This document shows positions 17,256 to 21,410 of a stretch of 64,000 nucleotides of DNA, one piece after another. The translations under genes were made by a program, and so were the position numbers. The notes under the pieces are model-generated. The model was not told the DNA's origin. It did no database searches and saw only the letters and a list, made by a program, of their open reading frames with translations. Location: positions 62,001-126,000 of the forward strand of contig NZ_QKTV01000009.1 in the NCBI RefSeq assembly GCF_003362725.1, read 5' to 3'. Positions within the stretch are counted from its first letter, which is position 1. Each line of letters opens with the position of its first letter. The stretch comes from Winogradskyella aurantiaca (GTDB taxonomy: Bacteria > Bacteroidota > Bacteroidia > Flavobacteriales > Flavobacteriaceae).

Positions 17256-17285
17256 TTGAATTATTGATTTTAATTTCTACCTTTG
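17256..17285 (+). promoter_or_regulatory. Promoter of the ribosomal-protein supercluster
   Basis: TTG at 17256-17258 and TACCTTTG at 17278-17285 are separated by exactly 19 nt. This matches the primary sigma-factor consensus of Bacteroidetes (TTG-N19-TAnnTTTG). Transcription should start a few bases later, in the GCAGCCC segment, giving a leader of about 40 nt before rpsL. It is the best-formed promoter in the window and the only clear one before the 17-kb cluster. Confidence 0.8.
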
Positions 17286-17288
17286 CAG

Positions 17289-17304
17289 CCCTCAAAAGTG
17301 AGGG
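17289..17304 (+). promoter_or_regulatory. rpsL leader stem-loop
   Basis: CCCTCA and TGAGGG form a perfect 6-bp stem around an AAAG loop, followed by TTTT. It begins within a few nucleotides of the predicted transcription start. It could be a 5' stabilising hairpin or a small attenuator; the following T-run is short and interrupted by AAA. It lies 26 nt upstream of the rpsL start codon. Confidence 0.6.
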
Positions 17305-17329
17305 TTTTAAATTTATATAATAATATTAT

Positions 17330-20348: not shown

Positions 20349-20654
20349 ATGAGTCAGAAAATCAGAATAAAATTAAAATCATACGATCACAACTTAGTAG
20401 ACAAGTCTGCTGATAAGATTGTAAAAACTGTAAAAAGTACAGGAGCGGTTGTAACAGGTCCAATTCCGTTACCAACTCACAAAAAAATCTTTACAGTATT
20501 ACGTTCTCCTCACGTAAACAAGAAGTCGAGAGAGCAGTTCCAATTAAGTTCTTATAAGAGATTATTGGATATCTACTCATCGTCCTCAAAGACAATTGAT
20601 GCTTTAATGAAGTTAGAGTTGCCAAGTGGGGTTGAAGTTGAGATCAAAGTGTAA
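20349..20654 (+). CDS. rpsJ: 30S ribosomal protein S10 (NusE)
   Basis: The 101-residue protein has the S10 core: [31 protein letters not shown] and [13 protein letters not shown]10 is a 30S head protein and, as NusE, links NusG to the ribosome and takes part in antitermination. In E. coli S10 opens its own operon; here it follows fusA by 11 nt. The 138-nt gap after it carries a structured element (see 20663-20758). Confidence 0.98.
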
Positions 20655-20662
20655 GTATAAAT

Positions 20663-20758
20663 CCTGAATTGTTCAGGAAAACATGTCCGGAGCTGCGAGC
20701 GAAGGAAAAACGGTAAAAATACAATTCAAGGCTGAAATGTATTTCGGCCTTGAATTTT
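20663..20758 (+). ncRNA. Candidate ribosomal-protein leader/attenuator between rpsJ and rplC
   Basis: Three elements lie in a row. Hairpin I (20663-20677) is CCTGAA-TTG-TTCAGG. Module II (20686-20706) has outer stem UCC/GGA and inner stem GCU/AGC, separated by a purine internal loop GGA/GAA that could form tandem G-A pairs. Hairpin III has 15-bp arms at 20724-20738 and 20741-20755 with one G-U pair, followed by TTTGA. TGAATTGT (20665-20672, in hairpin I) is fully complementary to ACAATTCA (20721-20728, in hairpin III), so I:III pairing excludes both hairpins. This layout fits a switch controlling rplC and the genes downstream. The ligand is not known; L4 regulates the E. coli S10 operon. Confidence 0.55.
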
Positions 20759-20792
20759 GAATAATAAATAGTAACAATAAATAATAATTAAA

Positions 20793-21410
20793 ATGTCTGG
20801 GTTAATTGGAAAGAAAATCGGTATGACCAGCATCTTCGACGAGAATGGAAAGAATATTCCATGTACCGTTATTGAAGCAGGTCCATGTATCGTTACCCAA
20901 GTCAGAACCGAAGAAGTTGATGGTTATAATGCCTTACAACTTGGTTTCGATGACGCGACAGAGAAAAGTGCTACTAAAGCAGACTTAGGTCATGCTAAGA
21001 AAGCTGGTACTTCTGTAAAGCGCAAAGTCGTTGAATTCAAAGGTTTTGATGAGGAGTACAAATTAGGTGATGCTATTACTGTAGATCACTTTATGGAAGG
21101 AGAGTTTGTTGATATTTCTGGAACTTCTAAAGGTAAAGGATTCCAGGGGGTTGTTAAACGCCACAATTTTGCTGGTGTTGGTCAAGCAACTCACGGTCAA
21201 CATAACCGTTTAAGAGCTCCAGGTTCTATTGGTGCCGCTTCATATCCTGCAAGAGTATTTAAAGGAATGAAAATGGCCGGTAGAATGGGCGGTGAAACAG
21301 TTAAAGTTCAAAATTTAAGAGTGTACAAGGTTGTTCCTGAAAAGAACTTATTAGTTGTTAAAGGATGTGTGCCTGGTCATAAGAACTCTTATGTAATTAT
21401 TGAGAAGTAA
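20793..21410 (+). CDS. rplC: 50S ribosomal protein L3
   Basis: The 205-residue product shows the L3 landmarks: [19 protein letters not shown] at the start, [17 protein letters not shown] near 111, and [16 protein letters not shown] near 152. The [17 protein letters not shown] loop reaches toward the peptidyl transferase centre. L3 is one of the first proteins in 50S assembly. The last base of its TAA stop is the first base of the rplD ATG, so translation is coupled. It follows the structured rpsJ-rplC gap. Confidence 0.98.

Follow-up and report, generated by a model that had tools for sequence, protein, structure and literature searches.

Introduction

In Escherichia coli, the ribosomal protein (r-protein) L4 controls the S10 operon in part by attenuation, together with NusA and at a Rho-independent terminator in the leader, as described in PMC10931766. 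In Archaeoglobi, a leader before rplC, rplD, rplW and rplB is assigned to L4 with the rating "?" in Table 1 of Eckert and Weinberg (2020; PMC7247131); the same table has leader candidates for S4, S15 and S16 in Flavobacteria, all in other operons, and names rplC only for Archaeoglobi. Attenuators of r-protein and translation operons that use intrinsic terminators include the rpsL-leader and the rimP-leader in the main text of Naville and Gautheret (2010; PMC2965389), in which the words flavobacter, bacteroid and rplC are absent. Finally, a table row in Weinberg (2010; PMC2864571) gives a GUCCY-hairpin motif from Bacteroidetes and Proteobacteria, rated "?" and without an Rfam number, whose consensus is in the supplement.

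Here we describe an RNA element that occupies the rpsJ–rplC gap of Flavobacteriaceae. Like the E. coli S10 leader, it is a likely attenuator of the S10 gene cluster, but the E. coli leader precedes rpsJ whereas the element follows it, has a different layout (P1, linker, P2, linker, antiterminator or terminator) and matches no Rfam family. It occupies the same place before rplC as the archaeal L4 candidate, a likeness of position. The S4, S15 and S16 candidates of that table are r-protein leaders from a similar bacterial group at different operons, and the rpsL- and rimP-leaders of the PMC2965389 main text are attenuators of the same type at other genes. The name GUCCY-hairpin fits the UGUCC before and within a hairpin of the element, a likeness drawn from the table row, and it is possible that this motif was an earlier sighting.

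Across the 64 kb analyzed, the covariance models of Rfam 15 gave no match at gathering score, and the nine matches below it at an E cut-off of 5, the best of them at 0.15, included no S10 or L4 leader. We found no description of a structured RNA in the rpsJ–rplC gap of Flavobacteriaceae in the open-licence literature searched, supplements aside (including PMC7247131, PMC10931766, PMC9723704, PMC2864571, PMC11109978, PMC6429828 and PMC2965389). The element is probably a new family within a familiar class of RNA.

Results

A structured RNA in a ribosomal protein cluster

The window is a 64,000-nucleotide stretch of the Winogradskyella aurantiaca genome. On its forward strand it carries rpsL, rpsG, fusA and rpsJ followed by rplC, rplD, rplW, rplB and more r-protein genes, in the order of a fused str-S10 operon, with the gap at 20655–20792 between rpsJ and rplC. 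NCBIfam profiles name ten proteins of the cluster around this gap, among them rplD behind rplC (TIGR03953). The features discussed below, all on the forward strand, are as follows:

17278–17285, +, promoter-like TACCTTTG before rpsL (likeness to the Bacteroidota −7 consensus)
20349–20654, +, rpsJ (S10), last gene 5′ of the element (NF001861, E 3.5e-46)
20662–20678, +, P1, hairpin UCCUGAA-UUG-UUCAGGA (folding against shuffles)
20681–20687, +, 5′ linker ACAUGUC, nearly invariant; its last two bases open P2
20686–20706, +, P2, covarying; a GGA/GAA purine loop between the stems UCC/GGA and GCU/AGC, with GCG as apical loop
20704–20713, +, 3′ linker GGAAAAACGG, nearly invariant
20717–20744, +, antiterminator hairpin, AAAUACA (20717–20723) with UGUAUUU (20738–20744) (swap test and minimum free energy folding)
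20725–20728 with 20733–20736, +, antiterminator inner stem, UUCA with UGAA (partial support)
20723–20756, +, terminator-like hairpin of 15 bp, loop 20738–20741, overlapping the antiterminator
20755–20758, +, U-tract UUUU, its first two bases also closing the stem; longer in most relatives
20793–21410, +, rplC (L3), first gene 3′ of the element (TIGR03625, E 9.7e-83)

A preliminary description of the gap had proposed three structures, hairpin I, a compact purine-loop module (U20686–A20706) and a 15-bp hairpin III. All three were recovered, as P1, P2 and the terminator-like hairpin, respectively. The region 20640–20800 folds at −34.1 kcal/mol compared with −23.2 ± 3.5 kcal/mol for 200 dinucleotide shuffles, none of which was as stable (z −3.1). 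Read 5′ to 3′, the layout is P1, the linker ACAUGUC, P2, the linker GGAAAAACGG and then either the antiterminator or the overlapping terminator-like hairpin.

The element is widespread in one family and lies upstream of rplC

A DNA search of 60 relatives gave 30 loci, and the element was present in 25 of their 30 rpsJ–rplC gaps, the window's own included. The first alignment held 24 elements (one further copy, L020, was not caught by the regular expression), and a covariance model was built from this stage. With an E cut-off of 0.01, the model found a match in 242 of the 299 genomes sampled from the window's family, about 80% of these Flavobacteriaceae; by subset, 218 of 249 good-quality genomes and 191 of 236 genera were matched. 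These are counts of model matches, of which the individually read copies are a subset, and they include one genome (G250) through its sole match at E 0.009. More than one match was seen in 13 genomes. The second match of G006 overlaps its element on the opposite strand, and weak second matches in G253, G175, G274, G228 and G165 lie outside the copies read. Applied to 100 sources (the window and 99 loci), the model gave 100 matches, one per source.

In samples of the order and the class, the element was not seen beyond the family. Nine of 119 genomes in a sample of the order carry a real element and all nine belong to the window's family, while three further weak matches lacked the core motif or rplC. 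In a class sample of 119 genomes, the real element was found in the window's own genome only, and six other weak matches lacked the core motif or rplC. Searches across more than 40 genomes apply stricter filters and lose weak matches.

We also scanned the GTDB species genomes with a pattern that contains parts of each linker, and this returned at least 117 stretches. Among the matches listed, rplC follows 86–217 nt downstream in 86 of the 117, and in three only rpsJ was found, as the stretch ends before rplC. The remaining 28 listed stretches, with neither gene, were set aside as chance; the 14 of them with listed record titles are all from outside the family. Listed records with the element come from Winogradskyella, Polaribacter, Tenacibaculum, Maribacter, Gramella, Salegentibacter, Cellulophaga, Aquimarina and Sinomicrobium, which we take to be Flavobacteriaceae. 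One record titled as a Rhodobacteraceae metagenome-assembled genome (L132, CALSPC010000003.1) also has the element before an rplC match and is probably mis-binned.

The final set comprised 162 distinct elements after removal of duplicates over the core plus 50 nt, with a terminator called in 160 (all but L114 and L237). For the covariation and swap statistics given below, near-identical sequences were removed and phylogeny was otherwise ignored. We located rpsJ upstream of 157 of the 160 elements and rplC downstream of 158. By eye, three loci with gaps of 191, 177 and 339 nt (L015, L017 and L022) have repeat-like inserts between rpsJ and an intact element. By its conservation and placement, this is a cis-acting RNA element between rpsJ and rplC that is family-wide and position-specific, and it has the general character of an r-protein leader: a structured RNA before r-protein genes that is conserved across species with covariation.

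Two nearly invariant linkers flank a covarying hairpin

P1 varies freely in sequence among elements and is kept as a hairpin. For 117 divergent 32-mers from the P1 region, the mean folding z score against shuffles was −2.52, with z below −1 in 85%; a control stretch 48–80 nt upstream (n = 116) had a mean z of −0.43 and z below −1 in 22%. In 100 of the 114 representatives that form any pair, P1 ends 0–4 nt before the linker.

The most constant parts of the element are the two linkers that flank P2. Each position of ACAUGUC is kept in 130–133 of 133 elements and each position of GGAAAAACGG in 132–133 of 133, a constancy that is partly by construction because 82 of the 162 elements were retrieved with a pattern fixing parts of both linkers and all 162 had passed a linker regular expression. 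In a check set of 30 loci, mostly from low-scoring genomes, the 28 distinct elements, which had themselves passed a looser linker expression, contain UGUC in 28 of 28 cases, exact ACAUGUC in 23 and exact GGAAAAACGG in 24.

P2 itself occurs in 96 distinct versions of 20–23 nt among the 160 elements. Its inner positions fit their own partners better than swapped ones (8.25 compared with 6.88 ± 0.17; 0 of 10,000 permutations, with related sequences and no tree correction). The purine loop to which the preliminary description had given weight proved too narrow a focus: the hairpin is real and covaries, but its loop has other forms (UGA/GA, UAA/GA), and 12 of the 96 distinct hairpins have standard pairs in its place.

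A terminator-like hairpin precedes rplC

In an alignment of 100 sequences, all 12 modelled pairs of the terminator showed double changes. P2 and the terminator together had double changes in 16 of 19 pairs, compared with 10.1 ± 1.5 in shuffles, and a covariation score of 0.347 compared with 0.178 for shuffles and at most 0.103 when the pairing was slid; the alignment had been fitted to the structure, and the slid versions serve as its control. One of five covariation measures was not above shuffles in the first alignment of 24 elements. G-U pairs are frequent at two adjacent positions of the stem, consistent with an RNA of the forward strand. In some genera (loci L091, L094 and L104), the terminator stem has a quite different sequence in an unchanged layout.

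Behind the stem, at least five of nine bases are U in 157 of 160 elements and at least seven of nine in 101. The hairpin and U-tract of an intrinsic terminator are thus present family-wide, with the hairpin called in 160 of 162 elements, and are weak in the window, where the best 9-nt frame has five U. A terminator scan of the window did not report hairpin III on the forward strand. The window belongs to a clade with a CAAGG stem in which the longest U-run is four or shorter in 22 of 34 elements, compared with 19 of 126 others. Given these short runs and the scan result, termination in this clade may be weak or in need of help.

A conserved candidate antiterminator overlaps the terminator-like hairpin

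The A-rich strand behind the second linker is able to pair with U-rich sequence high in the terminator hairpin: in the window, the partner of AAAUACA is a UGUAUUU that lies within hairpin III. This competing pairing, absent from the preliminary description, is conserved and covaries. There are 74 distinct antiterminator helices among the 160 elements, for example AAAUAC/GUAUUU, UAAAACAC/GUGUUUUA, AAAACAAA/UUUGUUUU, AAAGAAAA/UUUUCUUU and AAAAAUG/CAUUUUU, and the helix has at least 6 bp in 155 of 160.

When strands were swapped between elements, own strands scored 15.0 and swapped strands 12.14 ± 0.25 (n = 87; 0 of 10,000 swaps as good). The difference persisted at stronger redundancy removal (15.2 compared with 11.89 ± 0.40, n = 40; 14.53 compared with 11.26 ± 0.65, n = 16; each 0 of 10,000), and in an earlier, smaller set 0, 0 and 8 of 5,000 swaps were as good. 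Reversed strands, used as a control, were also raised (11.36 compared with 10.10, 11.78 with 10.24 and 11.03 with 10.07 for n = 87, 40 and 16, with 0, 0 and 206 of 10,000 swaps as good), a gain about half or less of that of the true strands. Since the lengths of the A-run and the U-run go together, part of the swap signal is composition. G-C pairs inside the helix are less exposed to this effect, and here own strands formed 45 compared with 24.9 ± 3.3 for swapped strands (0 of 10,000; n = 55).

Within the antiterminator, the inner stem UUCA/UGAA surrounds the G-rich start of the terminator stem and has the variants UUCG/CGAA, UCUG/CAGA and UCUA/UAGA. A structure-free alignment gave 15 double-change cells compared with 6.8 ± 2.0 in shuffles and a score of 0.237 compared with 0.174 (0 of 500 each). 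Two of five measures were not above shuffles and slid versions reached 11 cells, so support for this stem is partial.

We also folded RNAs cut before most of the 3′ arm of the terminator. Their mean z score was −2.9, with values below −1 in 95% of elements; among the 70 cut RNAs listed, most formed the antiterminator, and the upper terminator stem was formed in the window (L001), L008 and L123. Along the transcript of the window, the minimum free energy structure contains the antiterminator from a 3′ end at 20740, all seven outer pairs at 20744–20750, and the terminator from 20752. The two hairpins compete for 20723–20736 and 20742–20744. Only 0–6 nt (5 in the window) separate the 3′ strand of the antiterminator from the outer seven pairs in the 3′ arm of the terminator, a spacing that probably does not let the two hairpins form at once. 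Mean energies were −1.9 kcal/mol for the outer antiterminator helix alone, −6.3 kcal/mol for the cut RNA and −14.6 kcal/mol for the terminator.

Analysis of many gaps thus found helix covariation in P2, the terminator and the antiterminator; together with the nearly invariant linkers and the family-wide conservation, this bears out the earlier proposal of a switch-type cis RNA between rpsJ and rplC. The antiterminator is conserved and overlaps the terminator, as in an attenuator, with partial support for its inner stem. As judged from these comparisons, the conserved switch is antiterminator against terminator.

Promoter-like sites and genomes that lack the element

The sequence TACCTTTG before rpsL, a promoter-like site of the Bacteroidota −7 type, is the presumed start of the operon transcript. 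Directly behind it, at 17287–17306, the hairpin AGCCCTCAAAAGTGAGGGTT is followed by a U-rich tail and may be a small leader structure belonging to the str part.

The gap of the window has no TAnnTTTG site. Among 157 gaps with the element, this site lies between rpsJ and the element in 17, compared with 7.0 ± 2.5 in shuffles (maximum 14), including records of Polaribacter (L085), Tenacibaculum (L133 and L139) and Aquimarina (L123). The longer TTG-N16–22-TAnnTTTG occurs after rpsJ in eight of the 157 compared with 0.87 in shuffles (maximum 3). With such a promoter, rplC would be the first gene of the transcript and the element would be part of its 5′ leader.

We then looked for rplC in 30 genomes: 20 of the 57 in the family that the model had not matched, six of genus g146 and four from the order. 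It was obtained from 25, of which 21 are in the window's family. By eye, ten of these 21 gaps without the element are 54 nt or shorter, four have a bare hairpin (one of them, L205, doubtful), six have a promoter-like site before rplC and one has none of these. That a short gap, a bare hairpin or, in one genus, a promoter-like site takes the place of the element in these genomes argues that the junction of rpsJ and rplC is a regulatory boundary. The earlier suggestion that S10 has been left outside the regulated unit agrees with the eight promoter-like sites after rpsJ and with the six before rplC in genomes without the element, the latter seen by eye.

All six gaps with a promoter-like site belong to g146, which may be Flavobacterium; in these (L204, L206, L207, L210, L211 and L213), a TAnnTTTG-type site precedes rplC, and some of them also have a terminator-like hairpin between rpsJ and this site (by eye). 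The bare hairpins of L198, L199 and L200 (gaps of 83, 89 and 93 nt) lack the receptor part, and that of L200 has a U-rich tail (by eye); they are possibly decayed or ligand-free versions. In three genomes of another family of the order (L218, L219 and L220), rpsJ is not adjacent to rplC, and a promoter-like site TAAATTTG and a stretch GCACACTCATTTTAGGG before rplC are common to all three.

Discussion

We consider it likely that the element is a cis-acting transcription attenuator of the S10-spc genes from rplC on, inside a fused str-S10 operon of the order rpsL-rpsG-fusA-rpsJ / rplC-rplD-rplW-rplB and so on. As RNA polymerase leaves rpsJ, the RNA would fold P1, P2 and then the antiterminator hairpin. 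Once the 3′ arm emerges, the overlapping terminator could displace the antiterminator and transcription would stop before rplC. The putative receptor consists of the linkers on either side of P2; a protein would bind the linker and P2 region, and excess protein would favour termination. What the sequence comparison itself supplies to this scheme are the parts and how they covary, the sharing of sequence between the two hairpins and the position before rplC. The ligand is probably an r-protein encoded downstream, which would make the control autogenous, as suggested by this position and the precedent of L4 in the S10 operon, which makes L4 the first candidate and L3 the next.

A different signal, such as a small molecule, another RNA-binding protein or a Nus factor, or an activator that stabilizes the antiterminator, seems doubtful to us. 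It would agree with the results of our search for rRNA likeness, in which one element core scored 21 on either strand in local alignment to a 23S locus from the family (shuffles averaged higher, at 22.4 and 24.4), E. coli 23S 230–460 viewed beside the element showed nothing above chance, and a two-block search of rRNA loci (a 16S–23S stretch from the family and E. coli rRNA), at sequence level, gave none above shuffles; 23S was not matched in the window's own assembly. The want of rRNA likeness is, however, called typical of ribosomal leaders in a passage of PMC2864571. The terminator is also by far the more stable state. Without a stabilizing factor termination should therefore win, which would fit positive control; in switches of the T-box type, the bound ligand must hold the antiterminator. 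Against a signal other than an r-protein, all copies read sit before rplC, whereas one would expect a switch that senses a metabolite to occur at other genes as well. Akin to this is a version that we hold to be unlikely, in which the receptor is formed by the nearly invariant linkers rather than by the helices, with P1, P2 and the antiterminator keeping the linkers together, and the element is a positive switch and a new RNA family. The default would then be a stop in transcription of the whole S10-spc cluster, and the antiterminator would be held by a factor that binds the linkers.

Less probable still is a partial terminator without a ligand, which would respond to no signal and fix the ratio of the str part (S12, S7, EF-G and S10) to the S10-spc part. 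A bare hairpin is indeed kept in three or four genomes of the family that lack the receptor (L198, L199, L200 and perhaps L205), and six of one genus carry a promoter-like site before rplC instead, both seen by eye; but a fixed terminator needs no covarying antiterminator, no P1 or P2 and no two nearly invariant linkers.

Control of the attenuator by a leader peptide, translated from the AUG of ACAUGUC, is very improbable. The window has an open frame from this AUG through hairpin III to a UGA, but frame lengths are not kept across the 160 elements: 72 have a stop after two codons and the rest run for 4–37 codons (37 being about the length examined), and in L018 and L233 UUG replaces AUG. We therefore rejected it. 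Least credible of all is a switch of hairpin I against hairpin III, the mutual exclusion proposed in the preliminary description: the exact 8-nt complement of TGAATTGT and ACAATTCA stands for the window, but among 41 elements with ACAATTCA at the terminator base only the window has TGAATTGT upstream, and complements of at least 8 nt occur in 1 of 160 own and 7 of 800 swapped pairs, as expected by chance, which refutes the exclusion as a conserved mechanism.

An attenuator responding to an r-protein is the reading that we prefer, and with a candidate receptor, a terminator and an antiterminator in hand, its ligand, direction and strength are directly testable. To our knowledge, little is known about the control of ribosome synthesis in Bacteroidota. 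The element would place control of the S10 cluster after rpsJ, unlike the arrangement in E. coli, and it stands at the head of the series of r-protein genes that rplC opens; about 80% of the sampled Flavobacteriaceae genomes have a match to it. If the positive switch were true, it would set the share of the large-subunit programme that follows the S12-S7-EF-G-S10 programme in most Flavobacteriaceae.
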